Shown here: positions 31,224-45,331 of the stretch, in pieces
Numbering within the stretch: the first letter of the stretch is position 1
Layout: every line of letters begins with the position of its first letter
Assembly (NCBI RefSeq): GCF_014642075.1
Contig: NZ_BMIK01000003.1
Location: 62,001 to 126,000 of the forward strand
Source: Parapedobacter defluvii
GTDB lineage: Bacteria; Bacteroidota; Bacteroidia; Sphingobacteriales; Sphingobacteriaceae
DNA: 64,000 bases
Reading direction: 5' to 3'
Made by a program: the position numbers and the translations under genes
The notes under the pieces: generated by a model
Seen by the model: the letters and a program-made list of their open reading frames with translations, nothing else
What the model was told of the DNA's origin: nothing
Databases searched by the model: none

Positions 31224-34200
31224 TTAAGCAGCCTTCTGCTGTTTTCTCCGTTTGATAAATACGGTCCCGGCTACCCCAACCACCAACAGCCCTAAGCTCC
31301 AATACAGCCATGCGTAACTTTTATAAAGTGGTTCCGCATCGCCAATCAGTGCCAGTCCGGCCCAATAATAAGGATGAGATAACCGGCCTGCATGTTGATG
31401 CATCAATTTCAGTTTTGCATTCCGTAAGGCGGTGCTTTTGCTTTCGCCATTTTTCAAATTTTCATAGAATACGGTGATAATGTCTGTACTCGACTGTTCA
31501 TCAATCTTCCAGAGGCTCATCACCACACTGGGACAGCCGGCATACATAAAACTATGGGCCAATGATACGACTCCTTCACCGTTGCGCCATGCCCCGGCAC
31601 CCGTTTCGCAGGCAGTCAATACCGCCAACTCGGCACGTAACTGCATTGCATAGATTTCGTAGGTATACAAATAGCCATCATCCGCATCGATCCCGTCATC
31701 GGACATGGATTTTGCAAAGAACAAGCGGGATTCCAATGGTGCCAAGTTATTCACTTCGGCATGTGTACCCAAATGCAGCACATGGTATTGCGGCGCAAGA
31801 CGTTTAAACGTATTTTCCTGCGCCTCCTGTTCGGCAAACAGATCGTGCTGAAAAAGTTGTCCGATGCGCTGTGCAGCCCGTAGGGCGAAAGGCTGCCGAT
31901 ACAGGAAGAAGTAATCCTCATTCTCGAACGTTTGGCCGGTTAGTGATTTCCGGTAGTTAGCTTTCATCTCATCGGTAAAAACCGGAGCGAAAAGTAATGC
32001 TTTGAATTTATGCTGTGCGCGGTACGCTGCTTTCAACTGCAAGGCACTTGCTGCTGAGAGCAGGTATGATATGTCGTATTTACGGATGAGATAAGGCATA
32101 TCAGCGAACGACTTCTGCCCACCGTGCGTGATGAGTATTTCAAAATTAAGATAATACAGATCTGCGTCCGGTATAATCAGCAGCCTGTCAGTAGAAAAAT
32201 AAGCTGCTACCGGCTGGATCAGTGCTTCATAAAGCCGGTATGCGGGCCCAACAAAGTCCTGCGCTTCTACCCTATGTAACATCCTAAGGGACGCTACATC
32301 TGCCAACACACTCCGTTCAACACGATGAACATGGAAAGATTCAGGTGTAAGCACATAAATAAATACGGACTGATCGGTCGCTGCGTACTCAAGCAGGGTT
32401 TCACCGCCTGTCAATAAGCGGGCGCGGATATCATCTAATGTGGGGGGTGCCAGCTCGGTTCTCCGCATGATCAGTTGGTCGCCTGCACTCCGCAAGCTAT
32501 CCTGAAATACCCGGTAGCGTTCGGCTTCGGCGGATAGCAGCGTCAGCAGCGAATCGTTCCTCGCGCTGTTCAGGTATTGTTGGTTCAGGGCGGTGATCCG
32601 GCTCCGGAATACCCGGTCTCGTTGGGTGGAAGCTTCTTTCGCCATGCTAGAAGCGTCTACCAGCATATTATTGGCCGCAAGCCGGAGCAGGAGCGCTTTG
32701 CTACGCTCTGCATAGCCGAAACCGCGGATATTGAAAGCCTCGTCCTTTCCGTACCGGGACATTTCCCAGCATGCCTGCATTGCGTATGAATAAATCCGCT
32801 TGTTAACATCTGCCAAATCAATCAGTGCTGCCTGCGTCCGGAATGCATGAAGGTTTTCGGATACAAATGCCGAATAGTGATCTGCAAGGATAAGCAGCAT
32901 TTCCAGCCATTTCGTTTGGCCGGATTGATGGAATAACTGTGTCAATACCTCCATCCGCTGTTGAATATAAACCAATGTATTGTAGCTGAAAGGTAAGCGC
33001 TGAAACCAACTACCGACACGATCGGGTAATTCATCTACCCCTACTAATTCGGCAAACACGTCATCCGATAATTCGAGTGCGTCAACAGGGCGGTGAGCCT
33101 TCAGGTAGGTTTCACACAGTCTGTGAAGGACCTGTGCAACGGCATCGTTACCTTTCGGATACAGTATCCGTATAGCGGCCAGTACCTCACGCTGCATGGC
33201 CAACGCTTCTTCAAACTGTCCCGACTCATTCAATACCTGGGCGAGATTCTGCTTAGTGAGCAAGGCAAGTTCCGTATCAGCAGCTTTTGCTTTTCGATAC
33301 CGCTGCCAAGCGGTTCTATACAGAAGACCTGCCTCGTTAAACCGCTCCTGTTTGAGATACAGATCTCCAAAAAACGTTTCCACATAGGCCAGCCCTAACA
33401 CATCGTCTGGCGCACGGCGTTTCTGCAATGCATAAGCTCGGTCAAAAAGCTGCTCGGCCTCATCGTACTGCCCGATCTTCAGCTTGATCACAGCCAAATC
33501 CACCCAGACTTTCACCATCCCGATACCATCCTCGCCATAGGTTTCGAGCAACAGTTTACTCCCCTTTTCCAAATAGGCCTGCGAAAGGAATGGTTCATGC
33601 ATATAATTGTAAAGAGTTCCCAGGTTTTGGTAAGCCGCGGCCAGTGAAAACCGGTTTTCGGATTGGATGAAGTTTCGGTACTGTATATCCACCGCTCTTT
33701 GGCGATGATACAGCGCTTCGTCATACTGCCTAAGTGCCTCGTAAATAATAGCCAGGCTATTGTGTACAATCCCCATATTGGGATGATCCGGGGGGTAGTG
33801 CTTTTCAGTGACCTGCTGAAAAGCCTTCCCATCGGCCAAAGCCTGTTCAAAATTCTCACTGTACCGACTGATGAAAAAAAGCGTTTGCCAGATCATCGTC
33901 ATATCCGCACCGTCTTCCCCTTCCAGCAATCGGTTCAGCCGATAAGCCTTTTCGGCATATTGCCTCGCTTCGCCATACCGTTCTTCAATCAGGTACATGA
34001 CGGCGATGTGATTGTACAGGTGCACATAATGGCGGTTAGGCGATTCTGTTCCCCGGATTTCCGCTTCTGCCCTTTCGAAGTAGGCTGCGGCTTTCTTCAG
34101 CTCGTAAAGCTGGGTATGGAGCTGCCCCATCCGACTGAACGCCGCAATGCGCGCAACATTCCCTTTGGGCAAACGGGCCATCTCTAAAAAAGCGGTATCC

Positions 34201-34463
34201 ATCAGTCTTACGGCGTCTTCCAATCCTTTCTGGGTCCAAACGACCAGCGCGTGTTGTGAATAGGCCAGCAACAGGCTATCCGCCTTTCCCGCCGACCGAA
34301 AACAGGCGATTGCGTGCAAGCCATATTCGTTAGCTTGGTCTAACTTATTTTCGCGGTATAATCGGAAAGCCCGGTTGTAATTATCTCCACAATCCTGCGC
34401 GGGCGCTGCATAGCTGGCCATGAAAACCAAACAACCAATTAAAAGCGCCCTGTCCATCGTCAA
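31224..34463 (-). CDS. TPR-CHAT protein (caspase-like protease domain), exported and membrane-anchored
   Basis: 1079 residues. Signal peptide (cleaved near residue 22, ..APAQDCG), then a long array of tetratricopeptide repeats to about residue 500 (for example YDEALYHRQRAVDIQYR, YDEAEQLFDRAYALQKR), a helical linker, and a C-terminal CHAT domain. The caspase-type dyad is visible: His901 in HLGTHAEV and Cys952 in LTACETGAG. A transmembrane helix (about 1048-1067) and a basic tail RRKQQKAA close the protein, so TPR and protease face the periplasm. The start overlaps the stop of the preceding TPR gene by four bases (ATGA). The second ATG at 34457 is an alternative start. CHAT proteases are activated by partner signals in known systems; substrate here is unknown. 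Confidence 0.88.
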   Translation of the reverse strand: MTMDRALLIGCLVFMASYAAPAQDCGDNYNRAFRLYRENKLDQANEYGLHAIACFRSAGKADSLLLAYSQHALVVWTQKGLEDAVRLMDTAFLEMARLPKGNVARIAAFSRMGQLHTQLYELKKAAAYFERAEAEIRGTESPNRHYVHLYNHIAVMYLIEERYGEARQYAEKAYRLNRLLEGEDGADMTMIWQTLFFISRYSENFEQALADGKAFQQVTEKHYPPDHPNMGIVHNSLAIIYEALRQYDEALYHRQRAVDIQYRNFIQSENRFSLAAAYQNLGTLYNYMHEPFLSQAYLEKGSKLLLETYGEDGIGMVKVWVDLAVIKLKIGQYDEAEQLFDRAYALQKRRAPDDVLGLAYVETFFGDLYLKQERFNEAGLLYRTAWQRYRKAKAADTELALLTKQNLAQVLNESGQFEEALAMQREVLAAIRILYPKGNDAVAQVLHRLCETYLKAHRPVDALELSDDVFAELVGVDELPDRVGSWFQRLPFSYNTLVYIQQRMEVLTQLFHQSGQTKWLEMLLILADHYSAFVSENLHAFRTQAALIDLADVNKRIYSYAMQACWEMSRYGKDEAFNIRGFGYAERSKALLLRLAANNMLVDASSMAKEASTQRDRVFRSRITALNQQYLNSARNDSLLTLLSAEAERYRVFQDSLRSAGDQLIMRRTELAPPTLDDIRARLLTGGETLLEYAATDQSVFIYVLTPESFHVHRVERSVLADVASLRMLHRVEAQDFVGPAYRLYEALIQPVAAYFSTDRLLIIPDADLYYLNFEILITHGGQKSFADMPYLIRKYDISYLLSAASALQLKAAYRAQHKFKALLFAPVFTDEMKANYRKSLTGQTFENEDYFFLYRQPFALRAAQRIGQLFQHDLFAEQEAQENTFKRLAPQYHVLHLGTHAEVNNLAPLESRLFFAKSMSDDGIDADDGYLYTYEIYAMQLRAELAVLTACETGAGAWRNGEGVVSLAHSFMYAGCPSVVMSLWKIDEQSSTDIITVFYENLKNGESKSTALRNAKLKLMHQHAGRLSHPYYWAGLALIGDAEPLYKSYAWLYWSLGLLVVGVAGTVFIKRRKQQKAA

Positions 34464-35212
34464 TGCAACTGTTTCAGCAATTCCTGCGCACGTTCATCAC
34501 CAGCAATACGTTCCAACAACGAAACTGCGTTTTTCCGTTGGCCGGTATGGAGGTAACAAAGAGCCAAATACCAAGTGGCCTCCTTATGATAGGAAGCATT
34601 GCGGTCACCGGCTACTTCCATCAGCTGTTCTTTTGCACGGTCCATGTCACCGAGCTCCATGTACGCGATGCCCATGTAATATTGCAAGGTATCGGTGGTT
34701 CCGGATGCCTTGGCAACCGAGTGCCACTTTTTCAACGCATCATTATACGCACCCTCTTTATAACTGATCATGCCATCATAGAACAAATAGCGCAGGGTGT
34801 CAGCACTACCCATTTCCACCGGTAATCCCACATCCGGCACAAAGTATGCATGGTACAACCGTTCGCTCGAAGGGGTCGAAAACCAAATCCACCAGATTCC
34901 GGCCAAAACCAATAACGCTACCGATGCGGCCACCCATCCTACCCGGTAAGGTATCAGTCGCCTGCCTACCGTTGCCCGTTCCTTACTTTGCCCTATCTCC
35001 GCGTGATAGGCATCTAACTGCTCTTCGAGATTTGCCTCTCGGATACCGATCAAAAGTGCCTTTACTTCTGCAACCTTAGACCGGAATCCGGGTTCTTCGC
35101 TCAGCCGCCGTTCGAATGCGTCCAATTGGTCGGGCGGCATTTCACCACTTAGGTAACTTGCGATCAGCGCAAGTTCTTCTTCCGGCAAGTTGTGTGACGG
35201 TCTTTTTTCCAT
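34460..35212 (-). CDS. Membrane TPR protein in anti-sigma factor position
   Basis: 250 residues: a cytoplasmic N-terminus of about 88 residues (EEELALIASYLSGEMPPDQLDAF, resembling the helical start of anti-sigma factors but without zinc-binding cysteines), one transmembrane helix (about 91-113), and a periplasmic part with three or four tetratricopeptide repeats (FYDGMISYKEGAYNDALKKW, YMGIAYMELGDMDRAKEQL). It overlaps the sigma gene by one base and the CHAT gene by four. I infer that it binds the sigma factor in the cytoplasm and the CHAT protein's TPRs outside. Confidence 0.7.
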   Translation of the reverse strand: MEKRPSHNLPEEELALIASYLSGEMPPDQLDAFERRLSEEPGFRSKVAEVKALLIGIREANLEEQLDAYHAEIGQSKERATVGRRLIPYRVGWVAASVALLVLAGIWWIWFSTPSSERLYHAYFVPDVGLPVEMGSADTLRYLFYDGMISYKEGAYNDALKKWHSVAKASGTTDTLQYYMGIAYMELGDMDRAKEQLMEVAGDRNASYHKEATWYLALCYLHTGQRKNAVSLLERIAGDERAQELLKQLH

Positions 35213-35781
35213 TATCTCGTTTCCTCCTTTAACACCTGTTCACGCAGTTGCTTTAAACAGCGGTACTTATTGTTCTTCGCACTGGTCTCCGTCCAGTTGA
35301 ATACTTCCGCAATTTCACGCAGGCTTTGCTTACGGAAATAAAACCGGCCAAGCAGTTCCCTGCAACGCGCGCCCAAATACTTATATTGTTTTTTCACGGT
35401 ATTGATGTATGCATCGGTTTCATCTGCATACTCCTCCGAAACCCTATCAGATCCGGACTCCTCATCAACCGATACCTTATATTTATTTTTATTCTTCCGT
35501 AATTCATCAATCCACTTATTTTTCCCCACTCGCATAAGATAGGCGGCGAATTCCTCCTCGTCGCGGGGTGCAAACCGATCAGTTTGCACGTTTCGCCACA
35601 CAGCCAAGAAGGCTTCTTGATAGATATCCTTAGCGTCATCGGAAGAACCATTGTTCCGTACAATGTATAACTCCAACGGCTTGTAATTCGTAGTATAAAG
35701 GACGTTAAGTATACGCTCCTCATCGGATTTCAGACGCTCAGTGAGTGACGGTCTTAATTGCCGGGAACCAGGCTGATTCAT
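35212..35781 (-). CDS. RNA polymerase ECF-type sigma factor
   Basis: 189 residues. Region 2 lies near residues 25-95 (YIVRNNGSSDDAKDIYQEAFLAVWRN-type block and LMRVGKNKWIDELRK), region 4 near 130-185 (LREIAEVFNWTETSAKNNKYRCLKQL helix-turn-helix). A 30-residue acidic linker joins them. No region 3, hence ECF/group IV. First gene of the sigma-TPR-CHAT operon. The bipartite motif at 35931-35959 lies about 150 bases upstream, which suggests it transcribes its own operon and the four other genes that carry the motif. Confidence 0.9.
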   Translation of the reverse strand: MNQPGSRQLRPSLTERLKSDEERILNVLYTTNYKPLELYIVRNNGSSDDAKDIYQEAFLAVWRNVQTDRFAPRDEEEFAAYLMRVGKNKWIDELRKNKNKYKVSVDEESGSDRVSEEYADETDAYINTVKKQYKYLGARCRELLGRFYFRKQSLREIAEVFNWTETSAKNNKYRCLKQLREQVLKEETR

Positions 35782-35930
35782 ATGGTCTCCAAAAGTTTTC
35801 CGGCTAATTTAAATTTAATTCTTCATAATTCTATTTCTTAATTAAAACACAGGGTATAAAAAATAAAAAGCCCCTATTTCTGTGAATATATCCGTCTTGA
35901 CATCTTATATCTCTTTTTGTATATATCCTT

Positions 35931-35959
35931 ATAATCGTTAAATCTTAAAAAGGTCATCA
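35931..35959 (-). promoter_or_regulatory. Putative sigma-factor promoter, site E (sigma-TPR-CHAT operon)
   Basis: Minus strand TGATGAC (35953-35959), 15 bases starting CTTTTTAAGA, then CGATTAT. The TGA of the motif is also the stop codon of the serine hydrolase gene. The predicted leader to the sigma start is about 145 bases. Confidence 0.55.
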
Positions 35960-37141
35960 AAATTGATCGATATCCTGCCAAGGGATCCCACCATCGAACG
36001 TTATGTAGTTAACGATTCCGATAAAACTATTCAACCCGTTTTCTGGAGTCGGCTGACGGCGTCCGTTAGCGGTTGCGGCGATACAGATGCCATTACCGTT
36101 GCGGTAGAGTATCGCAAACGTGCCGGGCAGGCTACCCCACCAAAACCATTCATCACCCTCCACCACCCATCCGCAGCCAAAATGCCATCCCCAGCCAATG
36201 CTTGCTGGGGTTGTCGATGTCATGGTCGCTATTGCATTCGCATCCAACAGATCGGGGCGCGTCGGCAAGCCATCTACCGCATTGGCAAAGCGCAATAGAT
36301 CGGTGGGCGTACTGAGCCAACCCATGGCTCCATTGCCCCGGGTAAACTGTGTGTAATCGTAAACGTAGTCGGTATCTCCCCCTTGGCCGTAATACTTCAC
36401 TTCGTCTGCCTGTCGGTCTGCGAGTAATGCACCCGCAATGGTCGTTTTTTCCGCTCCTACCTGATCCAACAGCTCACTTTTCACGTATTGCTCATACGAG
36501 ATCCCACTGGTTTTTTCGATGATCCGGGCCAACAGCATGTAGCCGAAGTTACTATAAGCAAAGGCTGATCCCGGTGCTTTGGACAATGCCAGGTTATCCA
36601 ACGTCCAGTTGATGACATCGGTTGTGTTCAGGTTCTTGTCGAAAAAAGCGGGGTCATTATCCTGGCCCCAACCACCGATGGTATGGTGCAACAAGTCGCT
36701 GAGTGTGATGGCCGTCACGTAGGTTTTGTAGGGTTGGGTACCATATTCCGTACCCAATATCCCACTCGTTCCAAAAACTTTTTGATTGATAGAAAGCTTA
36801 CCATCCTGAATCAGTTTCATAACGGCGGCTGACGTGATCAGCTTGCTTACACTGGCTATGCGAAACCGTGAGTCAACAGTCACTTCCGCACCGCTTTCTT
36901 TATCGGCAAGGCCATATCCCTTCCGGTAGACCAGTTTGCCGTTTTTGCTCACGGCAAGGGAGACACCGGGGAAACCATTGTCTGAGAGGAATTTTTCCAT
37001 CCGCTGATCTACTTCTGCAATCGGTGTTTGTGCGTCTTCTTTTTCCAGAGGGGGCTCGTTGTCTTTTGAACAAGATGCCAATACGAGGACTACCGCGAGG
37101 ACCGATAGCCATGTGCGAAATGTTGTTGTTATTGTTGCCAT
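35957..37141 (-). CDS. Serine hydrolase, class C beta-lactamase-like lipoprotein
   Basis: 394 residues. Lipobox LASC (Cys24) followed by SKDNE. The penicillin-binding/beta-lactamase fold shows the SxxK motif at Ser97-Lys100 (ASVSKLIT), a YxN motif in FAYSNFGYML, and HFGCGW near residue 342 at the place of the third motif. Related enzymes are DD-peptidases, esterases or beta-lactamases; which one cannot be told. Its promoter region and first codons are duplicated upstream of the barrel gene at 38041. Carries motif A. Confidence 0.88.
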   Translation of the reverse strand: MATITTTFRTWLSVLAVVLVLASCSKDNEPPLEKEDAQTPIAEVDQRMEKFLSDNGFPGVSLAVSKNGKLVYRKGYGLADKESGAEVTVDSRFRIASVSKLITSAAVMKLIQDGKLSINQKVFGTSGILGTEYGTQPYKTYVTAITLSDLLHHTIGGWGQDNDPAFFDKNLNTTDVINWTLDNLALSKAPGSAFAYSNFGYMLLARIIEKTSGISYEQYVKSELLDQVGAEKTTIAGALLADRQADEVKYYGQGGDTDYVYDYTQFTRGNGAMGWLSTPTDLLRFANAVDGLPTRPDLLDANAIATMTSTTPASIGWGWHFGCGWVVEGDEWFWWGSLPGTFAILYRNGNGICIAATANGRRQPTPENGLNSFIGIVNYITFDGGIPWQDIDQF

Positions 37142-37194
37142 GAGTTGGATGTTATTTTTATTTATACCGGTAGATTTAAAAAAAGGTCATCAAA
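37108..37194. repeat. 87-base duplication, copy A (promoter and first codons of the serine hydrolase)
   Basis: Matches 38709-38794 with about seven substitutions and one indel (about 91% identity). It covers the sigma-type motif, the leader and the first 11 codons. Confidence 0.85.
37165..37192 (-). promoter_or_regulatory. Putative sigma-factor promoter, site A (serine hydrolase)
   Basis: TGATGAC (37186-37192), 16 bases starting CTTTTTTTAA, then CGGTA (37165-37169). ATG at 37141. Confidence 0.55.
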
Positions 37195-37325
37195 ATCGGG
37201 CAATGTTCCGGGGCGTCTTTCCGAATGTGATGTGGTCCAGGACATCTCAAGGTAACAGGGAAAAAAGAGCGCCCTTCCGGGTAGCTCATGTTTACCTTTT
37301 CGCTGTCTTTTGTTTGCATGGACCA

Positions 37326-38024
37326 TTATCTTACCGAACTTTGCATTTGTGAAAGGCCGGTGACAGCCGCTGGGTTGATTTCCAATATTTTTGTGGTTTT
37401 AGCCGTGATATCAAGTGAGTTTACGCGTTCCGAAATCCCGTCCTCGTCATGTGTTATGCGAGCCTCTCCTTCTTTGATAAATTGTATTCCACCGTTGCTG
37501 TTGTCCACATTGATGAATGCCATTTTGAAATCTTTGATGGAAGAGCCCTCCAGGATACCCGAGTACAGGTAAGCAAATATCGCTGAATTGGTTCCGCTCG
37601 TCGAAATTTCCATCGCATATACCGTAAAATGGCTGCCTGAACCGGATATGGCAGCAATCGTACTTTCACTGTTACCGGGGCCTTGCTTGCTTGCCACTTT
37701 CAATGTAAAATCATTTTTGTTCAACGAAGAGAAGCTGTATCTCCCATCTGCAAAACGGTGTCCAACTTCATATTCACCTGCACTTGTGATGTTGGTTTTA
37801 AGCAACATAATAGGGCTTATATGATAAATGCCGGTGATGTCTGGCGGATTGATTCCTTCGTGGATGGGCATGCCCATTTCTTTGAGTACATTAAGGTAGT
37901 TGCCCGGAATAATTTCTTGGATTTTCTTTTCCTGAATTTCTTCTTTCTGAGCAGATTCGTCATCTTTTTTGCAGCCTATCATCATGAGTATGGACAGGCA
38001 TAGTACAAGTTTGATTGTTTTCAT
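37326..38024 (-). CDS. Lipoprotein of unknown function
   Basis: 232 residues; lipobox MIGC (Cys18) followed by KKDDESAQKEE, a surface-export-like tail. The body is mostly beta strands (GRYSFSSLNKNDFTLKVASK, SGSHFTVYAMEIS) without a family I recognise. It is 16 bases after the barrel gene at 38041 and so belongs to the same transcript from motif B. The 184-base gap below it contains copy A of the duplication and site A. Confidence 0.7.
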   Translation of the reverse strand: MKTIKLVLCLSILMMIGCKKDDESAQKEEIQEKKIQEIIPGNYLNVLKEMGMPIHEGINPPDITGIYHISPIMLLKTNITSAGEYEVGHRFADGRYSFSSLNKNDFTLKVASKQGPGNSESTIAAISGSGSHFTVYAMEISTSGTNSAIFAYLYSGILEGSSIKDFKMAFINVDNSNGGIQFIKEGEARITHDEDGISERVNSLDITAKTTKILEINPAAVTGLSQMQSSVR

Positions 38025-38040
38025 GTCCGTATGGATTTAG

Positions 38041-38676
38041 TTATTGGATGCTATAGCTCAGACCTAAGGTAAAAAGGCGGTTATAGGCCTTTGACCCGTC
38101 TGTACCTTCTACTTTGAAAATATTGGCCAGCCCGTGGTTGTAGCGTAAATTGACGCCAAACTTGGGCAGTATCTGATAGCCAAGGCCTGCTCCCAATCCA
38201 AAATCCACTGTTTTGAACTCATCGTTGTCGGCATCGGAATAGTCAAAATATCCTTCTTCCTCATTTTCTACATCTTCTTCCCCATATGGAATGAATTTGT
38301 ACTTGGCGACAAGTTTTGTCGCAACATAGGGCACGAGGCCTACTTTCAGTTTCTCTGAGATGCTGTATGCCACCATCACCGGAAGGGTAATGTAACTGGA
38401 TCTGAGGCGAAATCCGTACAGATCTTCCTCGGGTGCAAACTTATACCCCAAAATGCTGTACTGCAACTCAGGGCGCAGGCTGATCTTATCTGACAGCCCG
38501 AATTCGGCAAATCCGCCAATCTGAAAGCCGATGACTGATTTGGGTTGTTCGACGTCTTCGCCGCTTACGTTTACGGCACTTAAATTGGGGCCTGCGGTCA
38601 CTCCAAAATGAATGTCCTGTGCCTGTAAGGCTGTTGTTAAAACCATAAATAACATGGCGGAAGTAAATTGTTTCAT
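38041..38676 (-). CDS. Outer-membrane beta-barrel protein (PorT/OmpA-barrel-like)
   Basis: 211 residues from the ATG at 38676: signal peptide MKQFTSAMLFMVLTTALQAQ, then HFGVTAGPNLSAVNV and eight or so amphipathic strands (SLRPELQYSILGYKF, GLGAGLGYQILPKFGVNLRY), ending LGLSYSIQ. This is the 'outer membrane beta-barrel' family common in Bacteroidota. The frame is open up to 38742, but those extra codons are a relic of the duplicated serine-hydrolase start (MAPITTTF versus MATITTTF), so I chose the start with the signal peptide. Carries motif B. Confidence 0.8.
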   Translation of the reverse strand: MKQFTSAMLFMVLTTALQAQDIHFGVTAGPNLSAVNVSGEDVEQPKSVIGFQIGGFAEFGLSDKISLRPELQYSILGYKFAPEEDLYGFRLRSSYITLPVMVAYSISEKLKVGLVPYVATKLVAKYKFIPYGEEDVENEEEGYFDYSDADNDEFKTVDFGLGAGLGYQILPKFGVNLRYNHGLANIFKVEGTDGSKAYNRLFTLGLSYSIQ

Positions 38677-38708
38677 TGCTTTTTGATTTATGTGAGATAG
38701 TTTGTTGA

Positions 38709-38794
38709 GCCATGTGCAAAATGTTGTTGTTATTGGTGCCATGAGTTAAACGTTATTTTCATTTATATCGGTAGATTTAAAAAAGGTCATCAAA
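38709..38794. repeat. 87-base duplication, copy B (before the barrel gene)
   Basis: Near-copy of 37108-37194. It brought a start codon and eleven codons that remain in frame with the barrel gene. Confidence 0.85.
38766..38792 (-). promoter_or_regulatory. Putative sigma-factor promoter, site B (barrel and lipoprotein genes)
   Basis: TGATGAC (38786-38792), 15 bases starting CTTTTTTAAA, then CGATA (38766-38770). Because this site is inside the duplication, its resemblance to site A is not independent evidence. Confidence 0.5.
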
Positions 38795-38907
38795 CGAGGA
38801 TAACAGCTAAATAAGAAAAATCAAAAAAAGGGTGCCTCCCAACCCGAAGCCCCCTCATAAAACTGTTTTTTCTAGCGTTGCAGCACCACGGCGATGCTCC
38901 ACAGTTT

Positions 38908-39348
38908 CTATTGTTTTCGATAGGTTTCCTTTACGATGTTGCCGGCGTCGTCCCGGTAAGTGACCACCAGCTCCTTACAGTTAAAACTTAAAATCGTAGA
39001 CGTTCCCGTGTTCAGTATCAGTATACGGCTGTTTGTGTTTACATCCCACGTGCCCGAAGTGCTTCCATCCGGGTCACATTTTTCTCCCCCATCGGTGTAA
39101 ACGAATGTTTTATCTGCTTTCAATTCGTTGATATCGTCCAACTCGCAGTCGTCATAAATTTCGTGGAGTACATCGCGATCGCCGCTCGCCTCAACGTAGC
39201 TAGCCGCGACTATTTTGTATTTTCCCGCCAGCGCTGCAACCGTGAGTTCACATTCTTCTTCGGTATCAGCTAACTCCTTTTTTTTACAGGCCGTAAACAG
39301 TGATGAGGTAATAAACAGTGCGCTTAGCACAAAAAGTAATTGTTTCAT
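38908..39348 (-). CDS. Lipocalin-like lipoprotein
   Basis: 146 residues; lipobox FTAC (Cys21) followed by KKKELADTEEE. ALAGKYKIVAASYVEASG, LKADKTFVYTDGGEKC and GTWDVNTNSRILIL follow the strand pattern of short Bacteroidota lipocalin-like domains (G-x-W at the start is replaced by GKYKI). Four further cysteines could form disulfides in the mature protein. Ligand unknown. Carries motif C at 39391-39417. Confidence 0.65.
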   Translation of the reverse strand: MKQLLFVLSALFITSSLFTACKKKELADTEEECELTVAALAGKYKIVAASYVEASGDRDVLHEIYDDCELDDINELKADKTFVYTDGGEKCDPDGSTSGTWDVNTNSRILILNTGTSTILSFNCKELVVTYRDDAGNIVKETYRKQ

Positions 39349-39390
39349 GGTCTTCGTTTTTGTTCTTGTTAAACCTTATATATACCCGGC

Positions 39391-39417
39391 TATCGTAAAC
39401 ATCTAAAAACGTCATCA
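39391..39417 (-). promoter_or_regulatory. Putative sigma-factor promoter, site C (lipocalin-like gene)
   Basis: TGATGAC (39411-39417), 15 bases starting GTTTTTAGAT, then CGATA (39391-39395). The surrounding bases are unrelated to the A/B duplication, so this copy is independent. Confidence 0.55.
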
Positions 39418-39559
39418 ATAAAAACACCGTCCTAACCAAAAAAGCCCCACCCATTCGTCAACTACCGGACAATCGATACGAGTTATTTTTTCCATTATAT
39501 AAAATGCGCCCTCCCAGGCAGGAGGGCACTTCACTAAACACATAGAACGGTTGATGTAG

Positions 39560-40186
39560 TTAATTCAGCAGAGATTGAATGTTGCACTTTATCCCTACCG
39601 TCACCCGGAATGCCGTAATATCCGGTTCCTCACCGGTACGTTGGCCGTCGAAATATTCGCTGTTTTTCCCTTCTAGGGTGAAAAGTCCTTTTGCATATAC
39701 CGCCCACATCGGATTAAAGAAATACGCAATACCACCCCCTACATGCGGTGCATGTGATTTTACCTGCACATCGGCGTATCCCATATCGTAGCTGATTTCA
39801 TTCATCCCCAATACCCGGTTGCTGTAACCCGCCTGGACAAAAGGCCGCCACGCATGGATCGTTCCGAGAAAGTTGAGCCGCAAGCCAACATCTAACTGGC
39901 GCATCGACATGGATTGCGCATCTACGTCGCCCACGGCAATGGAGGAATAGGAAAAACCTAAGTAGGGCTCGATCAGTTCGGTAATACCGTAACTGGCCGT
40001 TACTCCTGCCCCGTAGCCACTGCCGGCATTTTCGGAGAGGAATTCGTAGTATTCCGAACTCCATCCCATTAAATTAGCGCCGGCTGCTACATTCAGCCCT
40101 TTGACGGAGGAGCGTTGCATAATTTGCCCGTTGGCAGCCAGGCAACCAACTGCTGTGACGAGCACTGATACTAGTAATTGTTTCAT
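39560..40186 (-). CDS. Outer-membrane beta-barrel protein of unknown function
   Basis: 208 residues: signal peptide to about residue 20 (CLAANGQ), then strands such as GLNVAAGANLMGW, EPYLGFSYSSIAVG, RPFVQAGYSNRVLG and PMWAVYAKGLFTLEG, ending FRVTVGIKCNIQSLLN. It has the OmpW/OmpA-like eight-strand layout. It follows the kinase gene by 40 bases with no clear promoter, so it is probably the last gene of the FHA-PP2C-kinase operon. Confidence 0.7.
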   Translation of the reverse strand: MKQLLVSVLVTAVGCLAANGQIMQRSSVKGLNVAAGANLMGWSSEYYEFLSENAGSGYGAGVTASYGITELIEPYLGFSYSSIAVGDVDAQSMSMRQLDVGLRLNFLGTIHAWRPFVQAGYSNRVLGMNEISYDMGYADVQVKSHAPHVGGGIAYFFNPMWAVYAKGLFTLEGKNSEYFDGQRTGEEPDITAFRVTVGIKCNIQSLLN

Positions 40187-40226
40187 TTTCTTTGTTTTTG
40201 TTTATTTTTTGATTCCTTTCTCCTAT

Positions 40227-42023
40227 TCACGGCACCGTAACTCCCTTTTCAAGCATCACCACAAAATCTGGAGACGCTAGCATATCCGAGCGCTTGCCGC
40301 TGAGTTCGCTTTTCGCGAAAGGAATGGTGCGTCCGCTGACACTGCTTACGTTATTGAACCGGATACTGACCTGTTTCGAACCCACCCGGCGGATCTCCGC
40401 TGTTGCCAACGCGCCTGTAGGGATAATTGTATATCCGCGGTAGGTAACAGGTTTAGTAACCGAAAACGAGAGTACTTTGCCTTTTTCCAAGTGGGTTTCT
40501 TCCAGTTTACCCCGGAGTCGCAAGTTTACGGCAATGGGTCCATCAAGTACCATGGTGGCTGGTGTGCGGTCAGACCCCGGATTTGTTTCGCTTTCGGGGT
40601 TGGAGGGCAGCCGTGTATCCGGAATTTCTTCAGGTTCCTTTTCTATTGTCGCCGGTTCTTCTACTGTTTTTATCACAGGTGCCGGTTCATTCTCCGGTTT
40701 GCTTCCGCTGGGTTGCCGGGGGCTACGCGACTCCTCAGCCGGGCTTTCGGACTCGGCTGAACTTACCGAAGGCTGCCCTCCGGTAGCGGCTAACAGCTGC
40801 TGTACATCTTGCTGCACATGGGCCTCCGCTATGGGATCCGACCCCATAGCATCCTCTCCAGAAGCCGATTGCCCAAGCGAACGCACCCCCTCGCCGGGTA
40901 CATGAACGGATGATACTTGGTCTTGCTCACCAGCGGTCTGTTGGCCGCTTGGCCAAAGCAAGAACACCAATGCAATGACCGCCAACATTGCGGCGGCCGC
41001 TCCGGCTGCATACACCCCATAACGATAGCGCTGTCTCCAGTGCGGGTTATCCATCGGTTGCACAGCTAAGGGGGTACTTATCTTTGTGGGCTCCGGCACC
41101 TTCGTATGGGCTAGGTTGGCCGGCGGTATCCGTGATACCGCCGGCATTACGGTTGTCGGTACAGGAGCGGGTTTCACGCGATGCAGATTGATCGTCCAAT
41201 CGTGTGGAAACGCATTGAGTAATGCGTGGCGGAACTGGTTTGTATCGCCAAAACGTGCCGTAGAATCGGCCTCCATGGCTTTTCCGATAATGCTTGCTAG
41301 TTTTCGTGGTACCGCCTTATTTAGCTTGTCCGATGGAAGTGGCTTCCCTTTGATGATGGCCTGCATCAATGCGAACTCACTTGTTCCCTTAAAGGGCAAT
41401 ATGCCCCCGGTAGCTAATTCGTATGCCACTACCCCTAATGCATAGCAATCCGAAGCGGGGGAAGGTTCGCCTCCCTGGATCAGTTCCGGGGCAAGGTAAT
41501 CCAGCGTACCGATGACGCTTTTCACTTTAGTCAATCGGTTGGCCTGGTCTGAAATCCGGGCGATGCCAAAGTCCATGATTTTTACAGAGCCATCGGGAGT
41601 CAGCATGAGATTCGCCGGTTTGATGTCGCGGTGCAGCACCCCTTTTTGGTGTGCATATCCCAGCCCTTCCAGCAATGCAACCAATATAGGCACCAACAGT
41701 TGGGGTGATAAGGCTCCATGCCTATGCACGTAAGCATCCATGTTATCCCCCTCCACGTATTCCATAACCATGTAATGATCGCTGCCCTGTTGGACGTAAT
41801 TATACAGCAATGCGATATTGGGATGTGACAGCCGGCTCAATATGCGGGCCTCATTCGTAAAGCGTTCTAGAAAAGTCGCATCGTACACCAGATTGGCATT
41901 GAGGTTTTTGATGGCCACCTTCCGGTCCAGTGCCAGATCCGTAGCCAGGTAAACTTTGCCCATACCCCCTTCGCCTAAAAGCGCATCTACCCGATAGCCC
42001 TGTATTGTTTTTCCAATCATCAT
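40227..42023 (-). CDS. Membrane Ser/Thr protein kinase (Hanks type)
   Basis: 598 residues from the ATG at 42023, one base after the phosphatase stop; the frame is open further up inside the phosphatase gene but has no kinase sequence there. Kinase domain: glycine loop G17-x-G19-xx-G22, Lys39 in VAIKNL, Glu58, HRD at 131-133, DFG at 151-153, then LAPELIQGG. All catalytic residues are present. A transmembrane helix follows near residue 345 (AAAAMLAVIALVFLLW), then a long P/E/S-rich linker and a C-terminal periplasmic beta domain of ~120 residues (VNLRLRGKLEETHLEKGKVL) ending in KGVTVP. It lacks PASTA repeats. Confidence 0.92.
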   Translation of the reverse strand: MMIGKTIQGYRVDALLGEGGMGKVYLATDLALDRKVAIKNLNANLVYDATFLERFTNEARILSRLSHPNIALLYNYVQQGSDHYMVMEYVEGDNMDAYVHRHGALSPQLLVPILVALLEGLGYAHQKGVLHRDIKPANLMLTPDGSVKIMDFGIARISDQANRLTKVKSVIGTLDYLAPELIQGGEPSPASDCYALGVVAYELATGGILPFKGTSEFALMQAIIKGKPLPSDKLNKAVPRKLASIIGKAMEADSTARFGDTNQFRHALLNAFPHDWTINLHRVKPAPVPTTVMPAVSRIPPANLAHTKVPEPTKISTPLAVQPMDNPHWRQRYRYGVYAAGAAAAMLAVIALVFLLWPSGQQTAGEQDQVSSVHVPGEGVRSLGQSASGEDAMGSDPIAEAHVQQDVQQLLAATGGQPSVSSAESESPAEESRSPRQPSGSKPENEPAPVIKTVEEPATIEKEPEEIPDTRLPSNPESETNPGSDRTPATMVLDGPIAVNLRLRGKLEETHLEKGKVLSFSVTKPVTYRGYTIIPTGALATAEIRRVGSKQVSIRFNNVSSVSGRTIPFAKSELSGKRSDMLASPDFVVMLEKGVTVP

Positions 42024-42024
42024 C

Positions 42025-42909
42025 TTAGGGATTTGATGTACTGTTTTGAGGCGATTCCCGCGTTGCTTTGGCGTTGCTTTCTTGTTCACGTGGTTGCACC
42101 CGGGCCAACAGTACCGTAATGTTATCATGCCCGCCACGGCGTTTCGCCTCGTCTACCATATTCTGGGCCATTCCACTGCCCATATCTTCATCCAGGTAAG
42201 TGAGTATCTCTTCATCTGATAAGTACTCATACAGCCCGTCCGAGCAGAGGAGAAAGATGTCGCCGGGCATTAAACAGCCTTTCTTGCAGCATATTTCGGG
42301 AGTTATCGTTGCCGAAGCACCCAATGCCTGTGTTAAGATGTTTCTTTTGGGATGCTTCAATGCCTCATCGTGATTTATCTTACCCGTTTGCACGAGGTAT
42401 TGCACATATGTTTGGTCGACTGTCAACTGCGTCAGTTCCCCCTGGTGCAAGCGATAGGCCCGGCTGTCGCCTACATGAGCGACATACAACGTATCGGCCA
42501 CCGCAACTAAAGCCGTGCAGGTGGTTCCCATTCCCTTGTGCTCCTCCGCCTGTCCAGTCTGGTAGATTTCCGCATTGGCCGACCGAAAAGCGTCCCTGAG
42601 CCGATCCAATATCCGGCCGGTGCTACCAAAGAAAAGTTGTGCTACACGTTCTACCGCTATCTTGCTGGCTATCTCGCCACTATTGTGTCCACCCATACCG
42701 TCGGCCAGCATCAGCATGATTTCAATTTCCTCGGGTGTGCGCCCATCTTTGGGATATACAACAACTGCGCGGTCTTCGTTATTGGACCGGACGTTACCCA
42801 CATCGGTAGCGATATCAATACCTAAAACGCCGGCACAACCCGTATTTTCCAGCGTGACCCATGCAGGGGGGTTACGCTTGCGCTTTCCAAACCATGGACC
42901 CCAGGCCAT
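42025..42909 (-). CDS. PP2C-family Ser/Thr protein phosphatase
   Basis: 294 residues, cytoplasmic. Metal-binding and catalytic blocks: TDVGNVRSNNEDRA, LMLADGMGGHNSGE, VAHVGDSRAYRL, LLCSDGLYEYL and GGHDNITVLL, all with the expected aspartates. It should reverse the adjacent kinase's phosphorylation. It overlaps the upstream gene by one base and is followed by the kinase after one base, so the pair is translationally coupled. Confidence 0.95.
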   Translation of the reverse strand: MAWGPWFGKRKRNPPAWVTLENTGCAGVLGIDIATDVGNVRSNNEDRAVVVYPKDGRTPEEIEIMLMLADGMGGHNSGEIASKIAVERVAQLFFGSTGRILDRLRDAFRSANAEIYQTGQAEEHKGMGTTCTALVAVADTLYVAHVGDSRAYRLHQGELTQLTVDQTYVQYLVQTGKINHDEALKHPKRNILTQALGASATITPEICCKKGCLMPGDIFLLCSDGLYEYLSDEEILTYLDEDMGSGMAQNMVDEAKRRGGHDNITVLLARVQPREQESNAKATRESPQNSTSNP

Positions 42910-43565
42910 TAGCTGTGTGATTGCTTGCGCAGTAATACCACCCCCGCCATCGACAGCAATGCGGCTCCCAACAGGGAGTATCCGGCAGTCTTCATACCCG
43001 CATCGCCAACGGTCGTTACACGCTCCGTTGGCCGTTTGTATTGGATGGTAACATAATTGAATTCGTCTTTATCAAATTCCATCCCCGTGACATCCGCGGG
43101 CAGCGTAACCCGCATGTTTGTCTGCAATACATTGTATCCCATGTTTTGGGAAAGCGTGGCGGTGAAACTGTTTTCCGTGATCTTTATGGGTTGTGTTTCA
43201 CGCAAACCCAATTCGGCCAACCAGTTGTCTTTACCGAGGTACCTCACCACACCTTTCGCTTTATAGGTCAGCCGGAAGCTACGGTCCATCTCATTGGGTT
43301 CGTATTTAAAATCGAAGAGGTACAATGAGCTCAACGACTTCTCAATATTGCGTTTCAGGTTAGAAGCGTTACCGGCTCCATAGGAATAGTTCCACCATTG
43401 CCATTGCATGGCATTAAGCTTTCCCGAAATTACGAATGTAGCATTACCCGCTGAATCGATATGTGCTTCGCTGTTGAAAATCAGCGGTTCCTTCACTGTC
43501 TGTTGGCCCATTGCCAGCAATGTAGTGACCACCACCAGGGCGATCAAGGCAACTAAATTCTTCAT
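42909..43565 (-). CDS. Signal-peptide protein with C-terminal membrane anchor, unknown function
   Basis: 218 residues. Signal peptide (residues 1-20, LLAMGQ), a periplasmic domain of about 165 residues with no family I recognise (HIDSAGNATFVISGKLNAMQ, YVTIQYKRPTERV), then a C-terminal transmembrane helix (AGYSLLGAALLSMAGVVLL) and a short basic tail. It lies between the FHA-transglutaminase and phosphatase genes (17-base gap and one-base overlap), so it is part of the same signalling operon and may be a sensor or substrate partner. Confidence 0.7.
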   Translation of the reverse strand: MKNLVALIALVVVTTLLAMGQQTVKEPLIFNSEAHIDSAGNATFVISGKLNAMQWQWWNYSYGAGNASNLKRNIEKSLSSLYLFDFKYEPNEMDRSFRLTYKAKGVVRYLGKDNWLAELGLRETQPIKITENSFTATLSQNMGYNVLQTNMRVTLPADVTGMEFDKDEFNYVTIQYKRPTERVTTVGDAGMKTAGYSLLGAALLSMAGVVLLRKQSHS

Positions 43566-43582
43566 AATTATTATCGTTGAGT

Positions 43583-45256
43583 TTACAATTGTTGTTGTGT
43601 TTGTTGCTGTTGGAAAACCAATGGACCACCCAGGGCCATCCGCTGCGCCAGTTGATCCACTTTTATACGCATGAAATTGTCGTCTGTAAGTTCCATGGGA
43701 TGGACTCCGCTATTGATCAGTTGCTTCACGTCGATAAGCGAGTAGCCCGGTGCTCCCTGCTGGGCTTTTTGCATGAATTCGTTGAGCTGCTTCATGCCGG
43801 TCTCAAAAGCCTGATCGGCCGTAGCAATGTAGCCCAGTCCTGCTCCCCCCACGGCGGTAGCCTCGATAGCCAGGTACTGACCATTCACCCGCACACCGGG
43901 ATAGGCATGACCGGGGACAAAGAAAATCACGGGATCCAGTCCTTCACTGGCAAAAACGCTCGCATAGAGAAATGCCATCTCAATGCAAAGCCCGGTATTG
44001 CCCGTGATCACCTCACGGGGCAACCGCACTTTCTGTTGGGTGCTGACAATATCGCCTATCTCCTGCTGGGCACCGCTGGTGCCGCTATAGACCATGCCCG
44101 TACGCCGCGTAGCTTCGTACACCCCCATCATAAACCGCACCACTTCCTGTGGATTCTGACTCACACCTGCGGTTGCACCCCCGAGTACTTTTTCCTGCAC
44201 CTGCTGTGTATAATATTTAACGATAGGGTCTTGGGGCGTGATGAATACGGGCGCCAGGTCGTTGTTGTCTTCCATGTCCTGCTGCCCCCTGATTTCATTG
44301 ACGGGAATATTGGTATACATGTAGTCGTTGCGGCTCAGCATCTGGAAGGGATAGGTTTTTTCATATTTTTCCAGTTTCCCACTATTCATGTATGTGATGC
44401 GTATCTGCATCCGTTCGCTCGATTGTGTGGTTTTTTCCACTACCCGTTGGGGAAACTGCGGATAGATGGCCACCACGGAAGCTCCACCCGGTAGAATATA
44501 CCTGATCTCATCGGCCGTAGTCCAATCAATGTAGCCGGGAACCGAATAATCCACTTTGACATCCTGCAGTTCACCGCTGCCCTTGTTGTCGACGACTACC
44601 TTGCAAAAGTAAAACCGTCCGTCAAGAGCCATGGGGTTCGCATAGACCTTGTAGGCCGCAGGCATCATCGCCTGCAAGGGGAAAATCTGAATGTCCAATT
44701 CCCCATCGCCCACCATCTTCGACACGGCCGTTTCCCTGGTGAACCCCATCCAGAGCATTGCAGCCGCCGCCAGCAGAAAAACAACGGGTATCGCAAACCA
44801 CCCTATTGTTTTTGCTCTTTGCCGCCCAGCAGGCACATAGTCCATGACCTGTTGGGCATCGAATACACCGGTGGGCGATGGGATGTCGATGACCTGTGTA
44901 GGCATGGCTACAGGGACCGGACGCGGGTCGAGGTCAAAAATAAAGGTGGGGCCGTTGTTGCCCAACTGTACCTCGTCACCGGGACTCAGTTCTGTACTGC
45001 CTGTTATCCGGCGACCATTTACATACAGTCCATTCCGCGATCGGTTATCTTCGATCGTTATCCGGCCGTCCGGCTGCCGGACAATCCGTGCGTGTTGCCG
45101 ACTGACCACTAGCTCGCGTTCGGGGTCAAACCGGATCTCACTCTGTGGATCACGCCCGATCCGCAATTCGGGCAACGTAAAATCAAACGTTTCCATCTGA
45201 TTTGCCTTCGTGCCTCCCTTGTACTTGATCTGATACTGTTTTACTGTTCTTTCCAT
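43583..45256 (-). CDS. FHA-domain membrane protein with periplasmic transglutaminase-like domain
   Basis: 557 residues. N-terminal FHA domain (about 15-115): LRIGRDPQSEIRF, SRQHARIV and NRSRNGLYVNG give the phosphothreonine-binding R, S, H and N residues. A transmembrane helix (about 150-172) follows. The outer part has two beta domains, then a transglutaminase-like domain with Cys424 (GLCIEMAFLYAS) and His450 (VPGHAYPGV); an acidic third residue is probably in YLAIEATAVGG. The layout suggests that phosphorylation by the kinase is read inside while the outer domain acts on proteins or peptides. The tail is Q-rich (QQQQTQQQL). Carries motif D. Confidence 0.85.
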   Translation of the reverse strand: MERTVKQYQIKYKGGTKANQMETFDFTLPELRIGRDPQSEIRFDPERELVVSRQHARIVRQPDGRITIEDNRSRNGLYVNGRRITGSTELSPGDEVQLGNNGPTFIFDLDPRPVPVAMPTQVIDIPSPTGVFDAQQVMDYVPAGRQRAKTIGWFAIPVVFLLAAAAMLWMGFTRETAVSKMVGDGELDIQIFPLQAMMPAAYKVYANPMALDGRFYFCKVVVDNKGSGELQDVKVDYSVPGYIDWTTADEIRYILPGGASVVAIYPQFPQRVVEKTTQSSERMQIRITYMNSGKLEKYEKTYPFQMLSRNDYMYTNIPVNEIRGQQDMEDNNDLAPVFITPQDPIVKYYTQQVQEKVLGGATAGVSQNPQEVVRFMMGVYEATRRTGMVYSGTSGAQQEIGDIVSTQQKVRLPREVITGNTGLCIEMAFLYASVFASEGLDPVIFFVPGHAYPGVRVNGQYLAIEATAVGGAGLGYIATADQAFETGMKQLNEFMQKAQQGAPGYSLIDVKQLINSGVHPMELTDDNFMRIKVDQLAQRMALGGPLVFQQQQTQQQL

Positions 45257-45303
45257 AACCTGAGTGGTTGTTAATTGTGTTTAATGGAGATATTCTTGAA
45301 ACC

Positions 45304-45331
45304 TATCGGACGAGTATCCAAAAGGTCAACA
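45304..45331 (-). promoter_or_regulatory. Putative sigma-factor promoter, site D (FHA/PP2C/kinase operon)
   Basis: TGTTGAC (45325-45331), 16 bases starting CTTTTGGATA, then CGATA (45304-45308). One base differs from the other sites in the upstream element. ATG at 45256. Confidence 0.5.

Follow-up and report, generated by a model that had tools for sequence, protein, structure and literature searches.

A 64,000-nucleotide stretch of Parapedobacter defluvii DNA (NZ_BMIK01000003.1, positions 62,001–126,000, assembly GCF_014642075.1; the window, to whose positions coordinates refer unless a contig or locus is named) carries on its minus strand five copies of a bipartite motif, TGATGAC followed by a gap of 15 or 16 bases and CGATA. 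The sequence evidence indicates, with a probability of about 0.9, that this motif marks the regulon of an autoregulated extracytoplasmic function (ECF) sigma factor and that the regulon includes a kinase module. The protein that binds the motif is very likely the ECF sigma factor encoded at 35212–35781. The boxes look similar to those of SigW-type ECF promoters (TGAAAC...CGTA). The five sites in the window are:

Site A, 35933–35959, minus strand, TGATGACCTTTTTAAGATTTAACGATT: predicted promoter of the sigma operon, about 150 nt 5′ of the sigma start
Site B, 37165–37192, minus strand, TGATGACCTTTTTTTAAATCTACCGGTA: predicted serine hydrolase promoter, with the start codon 23 nt downstream
Site C, 38766–38792, minus strand, TGATGACCTTTTTTAAATCTACCGATA: predicted promoter of an outer-membrane barrel and lipoprotein pair
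Site D, 39391–39417, minus strand, TGATGACGTTTTTAGATGTTTACGATA: predicted promoter of a lipocalin-like lipoprotein
Site E, TGTTGAC variant, 45304–45331, minus strand, TGTTGACCTTTTGGATACTCGTCCGATA: predicted promoter of an FHA/transglutaminase, PP2C and kinase operon

A first-pass annotation of the window had listed these five sites, all of which were found with the spacing it gave, and its statement that the 64 kb hold no further copy was borne out, looser patterns included. The first site ends where it had been placed but starts at 35933 instead of 35931; it overlaps the stop codon of the upstream serine hydrolase gene. One pair of sites is duplicated, as had been noticed, but the pair consists of those at 37165 and 38766 (Sites B and C) and not of Sites A and B. 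Sites B and C are one recent duplication, with ∼70 bp shared, including the first codons of both genes; it carried the promoter together with these codons onto the second gene. Since the hydrolase codons were copied onto the barrel gene by the duplication that made Site C, the annotated barrel start at 38742 is probably false, and the true start is probably Met23 (MKQFTSAML, at 38676).

The whole genome of the window (Sphingobacteriaceae; 5.80 Mb in 66 contigs) was scanned by pattern searches. It contains nine strict copies of the motif, five of them in the window, and all nine lie 20–150 bp 5′ of a gene on the same strand. In 30 Mb of simulated sequence with the dinucleotide composition of the window the chance expectation was ∼0.002 copies per 64 kb or ∼0.2 per genome, a rough figure that derives from a single simulated match, and the reversed pattern gave 0–1 copies genome-wide compared with nine for the strict pattern. 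A pattern with a different spacing was discarded, having four matches compared with nine at the correct spacing. The motif is thus not spread at random over the genome, and the placement upstream of same-strand genes that had been described for the window is true of every copy. Confinement to the neighbourhood of the sigma gene did not hold, since three copies are on contig C10 and one is on contig C12, each ∼20–35 bp before a gene whose product carries a signal peptide and lipoprotein cysteine at its N terminus:

Sites outside the window, from the pattern search: C10:89995, C10:90778, C10:92489 and C12:124608
Lipoprotein genes after these sites: L009 9241–9966, L009 10024–10758, L009 12550–15108 and L010 9139–9576

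Nine genomes of Parapedobacter, a soil bacterium, were compared, of which five, including that of the window, are sigma-positive and four are sigma-negative. Orthologs of the sigma factor (58–71% identity) are present in four other genomes of the genus and absent from the remaining four, and the CHAT gene described below has the same distribution (5/9 genomes). Every sigma-positive genome (5/5), but no sigma-negative one (0/4), has strict sites in promoter positions; the sigma-negative genomes hold one match in G007 and two one-mismatch matches in G005, all inside long reading frames. Other ECF paralogs do occur in the motif-negative genomes. Searches that allowed two mismatches were close to background except for matches with 0–1 mismatches.

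Before orthologous genes of other species the boxes are kept while the spacers have diverged. P. soli (G008) retains sites before the sigma gene, the lipocalin-like lipoprotein gene (with TGATGACGTTCTGGCTGTTTTACGATA as the counterpart of Site D) and the FHA/PP2C/kinase operon, which it alone among the other genomes of the genus possesses; its equivalent of Site E, TGTTGACCTTTTTATGTATACCCCGATA, has the same boxes, including the TGTTGAC variant, and a changed spacer. The P. soli sigma-operon site precedes a short lipoprotein-like frame 5′ of the sigma gene; a site corresponding to Site C accompanies a homolog of the barrel protein (26% identity; G008 C127). Site B is kept in P. koreensis (G003) and P. 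pyrenivorans (G004) before the orthologous hydrolase gene, which in both species heads the sigma operon, and P. pyrenivorans has an equivalent of Site A with one mismatch (TGATGATTTTTTCGATAGGCAGCGATA) at the hydrolase stop codon. In species G006 a site lies before an 868-amino-acid (aa) lipoprotein gene at the head of the sigma operon. Site-bearing orthologs of the targets lp241, lp244 and the 852/857-aa lipoprotein were found in P. soli (77% identity), P. pyrenivorans (87%) and P. koreensis (61%), respectively. The motif is conserved at orthologous loci. A further sigma/anti-sigma/CHAT operon of P. soli lies at a distance of 12 kb (L082 2055–6581; G008 C88), with an 844-aa lipoprotein gene just 5′ of its sigma gene and a TGTTGACCTTTTGTGGTTTTACCCCATA site after its CHAT gene. 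Separately, an intact −35 box with a broken −10 box (CGCCA) was seen at L140 2180–2206 (G000 C10:44179), ∼400 nt 5′ of a LacI-type regulator gene, and P. pyrenivorans carries an intact site (CGATA; L084 9183–9209) upstream of the homologous regulator gene.

A search by sigma alignment gave 80 named loci, of which 18 contain a three-gene module (genes for a sigma factor, a membrane TPR protein and a TPR-CHAT protein near one another) and the 62 without it served as controls. The module was found in Parapedobacter, Chitinophagaceae, Cyclobacteriaceae, Flavobacteriaceae, Cryomorphaceae and metagenome-assembled genomes, and its sigma factors group in a single clade (support 95/88; 96% of bootstrap trees). 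The CHAT and candidate anti-sigma genes are separate in 18/18 module loci and adjacent in 17/18; the exception is Algoriphagus antarcticus (L157), whose CHAT gene is located upstream. A weight matrix trained on Parapedobacter sites only, with scores of at least 18 taken as positive, was positive in 11/15 distant module loci compared with 2/62 control sigma loci (Fisher p 1.4e-8). Most of the sites in these distant loci stand 5′ of the sigma operon, as in six loci, or of genes for lipoproteins or secreted proteins, and a few lie inside reading frames. As in P. soli, a site is found before the sigma gene in L148, L151, L152, L155, L158 and L189.

An exact search found the motif in 17 of 395 genomes of the class, with two or more matches in four of them (that of the window, G056, G143 and G378). 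G143 and G378 have a strong match to the anti-sigma profile, and all five of their sites are non-coding and 8–54 bp before genes for secreted proteins or lipoproteins. Both matches in G056 and most of the single matches are inside long reading frames. Most single matches were counted as chance, as were the exact matches in G027, G065, G087 and G007, which lie inside reading frames. The anti-sigma profile was itself rejected as a class-wide marker of the module because it matched 141/395 genomes, many of them by TPR segments only.

The sigma operon of P. defluvii encodes the three proteins of the module:

35212–35781, minus strand: ECF sigma factor, 189 aa, probable reader of the motif
34460–35212, minus strand: probable anti-sigma factor of the membrane, 250 aa, whose gene immediately follows the sigma gene in 18/18 sigma-CHAT loci
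31224–34463, minus strand: TPR-CHAT caspase-like peptidase, 1079 aa (Pfam CHAT 2.7e-57, TPR_12 3.4e-28)

The 189-aa protein contains sigma regions 2 and 4 and lacks regions 1 and 3, as ECF (group IV) sigma factors do, and matches Pfam Sigma70_r2 (E 6e-13) and NCBIfam sigma70-ECF (8e-18, over residues 30–182). A profile of 21 orthologs matches Mycobacterium tuberculosis SigL (6dv9) over positions 18–181, covering regions 2 and 4 (E 6.5e-17), and aligns with SigW (5wuq) over both domains as well. The predicted cognate promoters before its own operon, a further mark of ECF factors, are Sites A and B. About 20 nt 5′ of the sigma start codon, TTAAATTAGCCGGAAAC (35790–35825, minus strand) is nearly identical in 5/5 sigma-positive Parapedobacter species, between which the rest of the sigma leader differs; it is possibly a housekeeping −7 box for basal sigma expression.

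The 250-aa protein is likely the anti-sigma factor. It has a helical N-terminal domain, one transmembrane helix at ∼95–112 and an extracytoplasmic TPR domain, and in the predicted structure (predicted local distance difference test score, pLDDT, of 88) helices span residues 11–75 and 90–112 and the TPR domain residues 139–249. Residues 16–121 match the NCBIfam 'anti-sigma factor' model NF052375 at E 1.3e-5, under its curated cut-off, and ortholog comparison places a DPGLPxxMS segment just after the membrane helix among the most conserved stretches. The 1079-aa protein is predicted to have an N-terminal signal peptide and a C-terminal transmembrane helix with a basic tail. It combines a CHAT fold with the catalytic His901 and Cys952, which are invariant in 20 orthologs, as is characteristic of CHAT-domain peptidases, and the fold of its model matches Csx29 (Z 24–28), separase and DdvA. 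The CHAT gene belongs to the sigma operon itself, and the peptidase therefore probably provides an input to the sigma factor besides being one of its outputs. Adjoining the CHAT gene is a gene for an 899-aa protein with a zinc-metalloprotease-like HExxH motif (28380–31079), which is found at 84–86% identity beside the same operon in P. pyrenivorans and P. soli.

This arrangement resembles SigW/RsiW and RpoE/RseA in its two-domain sigma factor, adjacent single-pass membrane protein, −35/−10 pair of fixed spacing, envelope protein targets and autoregulation, the last of these being predicted here from sequence. It differs from them in the addition of a TPR-CHAT peptidase to the operon, in the TPR domain that forms the outer part of the candidate anti-sigma factor and in the −35/−10 words themselves, TGATGACnTTTT and CGATA. 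RseA and other membrane anti-sigma factors are substrates of general proteases, DegS and RseP among them (PMC10028731). In Craspase, a type III-E CRISPR system, the TPR-CHAT protease Csx29 cuts the sigma inhibitor Csx30 (PMC10028731), and there too a single locus encodes a TPR-CHAT protease, a sigma inhibitor (in Parapedobacter a candidate one) and an ECF sigma factor and contains sigma motifs. Unlike Csx29, which is RNA-activated and acts in complex with Cas7-11, the Parapedobacter CHAT protein has a signal peptide and a membrane anchor; the genes inspected around the operon included no Cas7-11, for which no family search was made, and the NCBIfam CASP models for sigma and CHAT were not reached (NF041236, 32 bits, cut-off 100; NF041237, 15 bits, cut-off 300). 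The model of the TPR-CHAT protein also aligns with DdvA of Myxococcus xanthus (PDB 8rot, 8rw5), a transmembrane anti-sigma factor, over 570 residues that cover both the TPR and CHAT parts (Z 21.6, root-mean-square deviation 8.0). DdvA, however, unites an anti-sigma domain and TPR-CHAT in one chain, whereas these are two proteins in Parapedobacter (34460–35212 and 31224–34463). Caspase-like or CHAT proteins are likewise encoded beside sigma factors in ECF54 loci (PMC8999054) and in the metacaspase operons of myxobacteria (PMC3501461); ECF54 is described as having no anti-sigma factor, while a candidate one is always present in the module. No description of a sigma/anti-sigma/CHAT unit in Bacteroidetes was found in the open-licence papers searched.

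We propose that TGATGACnTTTT and CGATA would serve as the −35 and −10 elements of a promoter recognised by the sigma factor at 35212–35781, which would transcribe its own operon (serine hydrolase, sigma factor, membrane TPR anti-sigma factor and TPR-CHAT peptidase), secreted and lipid-anchored proteins, an outer-membrane barrel and, in P. defluvii and P. soli, the kinase/phosphatase/FHA module. The sigma factor is probably held inactive by the product of the next gene, which spans the membrane once and has a helical domain in the cytoplasm and a TPR domain outside it. Activation is likely triggered by the TPR-CHAT peptidase, which, anchored on the outer face of the membrane, would sense an envelope signal and cleave or rearrange the anti-sigma factor, thereby freeing the sigma factor. 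CHAT-dependent release is plausible, and cleavage of the anti-sigma factor by the peptidase as the activating step is offered tentatively, at close to even odds. An action of CHAT on the anti-sigma factor is proposed because of the Csx29 fold and DdvA match, the cutting of Csx30 in Craspase, the CHAT neighbours of ECF54 and the metacaspase operons. With somewhat less confidence, the module may represent an envelope-stress family of Bacteroidota in which site-1 cleavage of an ECF anti-sigma factor falls to a dedicated protease, a separate, anchored, extracytoplasmic CHAT peptidase. Such systems would be equivalents of DdvA split into two proteins and of Craspase without CRISPR, and would share one promoter code across families.

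Several observations weigh against parts of this scheme. In P. koreensis and species G006 the sigma gene lacks a site immediately 5′ of it, and autoregulation would there depend on transcription reading through from the gene upstream. No site scoring at least 14 is present in four of the 15 distant module loci (L148, L160, L161 and L163), L148 having a weaker motif variant before its sigma gene, and the best site in L150 and L156 falls inside a reading frame. The −10 box is mostly CGATG in the distant families, and therefore specificity drifts. Fold searches with the anti-sigma model returned TPR proteins almost exclusively, only the TPR part being matched, and found no solved anti-sigma structure for the N-terminal domain.

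The strongest alternative accepts the link between sigma factor, anti-sigma factor and motif but regards the CHAT peptidase as an output, a co-transcribed envelope effector without control of the anti-sigma factor, the signal reaching the TPR domain otherwise, for example by general site-1/site-2 proteolysis of the DegS and RseP type. Co-transcription in the sigma operon does not by itself fix the direction of control, and we consider this alternative a serious one, if somewhat short of an even chance. The near-constant adjacency of the CHAT and anti-sigma genes argues against it, as do the apparent placement of both TPR domains on the same side of the membrane, the cutting of a sigma inhibitor by the TPR-CHAT protease of Craspase (PMC10028731) and the structural alignment with DdvA. 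It is improbable that another sigma factor or DNA-binding protein reads the motif and that the ECF sigma gene is merely a target: at least 20 other related sigma genes are present in the genome of the window, but the motif tracks the sigma clade both within the genus and across families, ECF paralogs are found in motif-negative genomes, and the −35/−10 layout is typical of ECF promoters. The derivation of Sites B and C from one duplication might suggest that the copies arose by chance or duplication and have no regulatory role, but this has a negligible probability and conflicts with the counts obtained within the genome and across species, as well as with unrelated spacers, placement before genes and retention before orthologs. 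An autoregulated sigma factor reading the motif, as the first-pass annotation had suggested, is thus supported by 9 copies compared with 0.2 expected, 5/5 compared with 0/4 genomes and 11/15 compared with 2/62 loci. Its further proposal that the motif ties together the kinase module, envelope proteins and the CHAT protease also gains support, and the predicted regulon extends well beyond the locus.

The other genes of the proposed regulon in the window are:

35957–37141, minus strand: serine hydrolase lipoprotein, class C beta-lactamase family (Pfam Beta-lactamase 2.3e-59)
38041–38742, minus strand: outer-membrane beta-barrel protein (Pfam OMP_b-brl_2 1.3e-26)
37326–38024, minus strand: lipoprotein, 232 aa, second gene after Site C, with homologs elsewhere that have their own site
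38908–39348, minus strand: lipocalin-like lipoprotein (Pfam Lipocalin_4 2.7e-07)
43583–45256, minus strand: FHA/transglutaminase-like membrane protein, first gene after Site E (Pfam FHA 9.6e-19)
42025–42909, minus strand: PP2C phosphatase of the Site E operon (NCBIfam Stp1_PP2C_phos 7.3e-71, above cut-off)
40227–42137, minus strand: Ser/Thr protein kinase of the Site E operon (Pfam Pkinase 9.7e-55)

In P. soli (C101) and Indibacter (L149) the motif stands before genes for homologs of the 232-aa lipoprotein (28–31% identity). Residues 221–461 of the FHA/transglutaminase-like protein match the NCBIfam model of the anti-phage protein ProA at E 1.6e-16, far under its cut-off. Outside the window, the ∼850-aa lipoprotein family (L009 12550–15108 and homologs), which has no significant Pfam match, is a motif target in Parapedobacter, Mongoliibacter, Indibacter and Algoriphagus and hence spans Sphingobacteriaceae and Cyclobacteriaceae.

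Together, these results turn a pattern seen in a single window into a testable regulon found across several Bacteroidota families, for which the promoter and the sigma clade are defined and the three-gene control unit is conserved. They tie uncharacterised lipoproteins, including the ∼850-aa family, to one signal, and they suggest that the TPR-CHAT/anti-sigma logic of Craspase may be one case of a wider, CRISPR-free form of sigma control.

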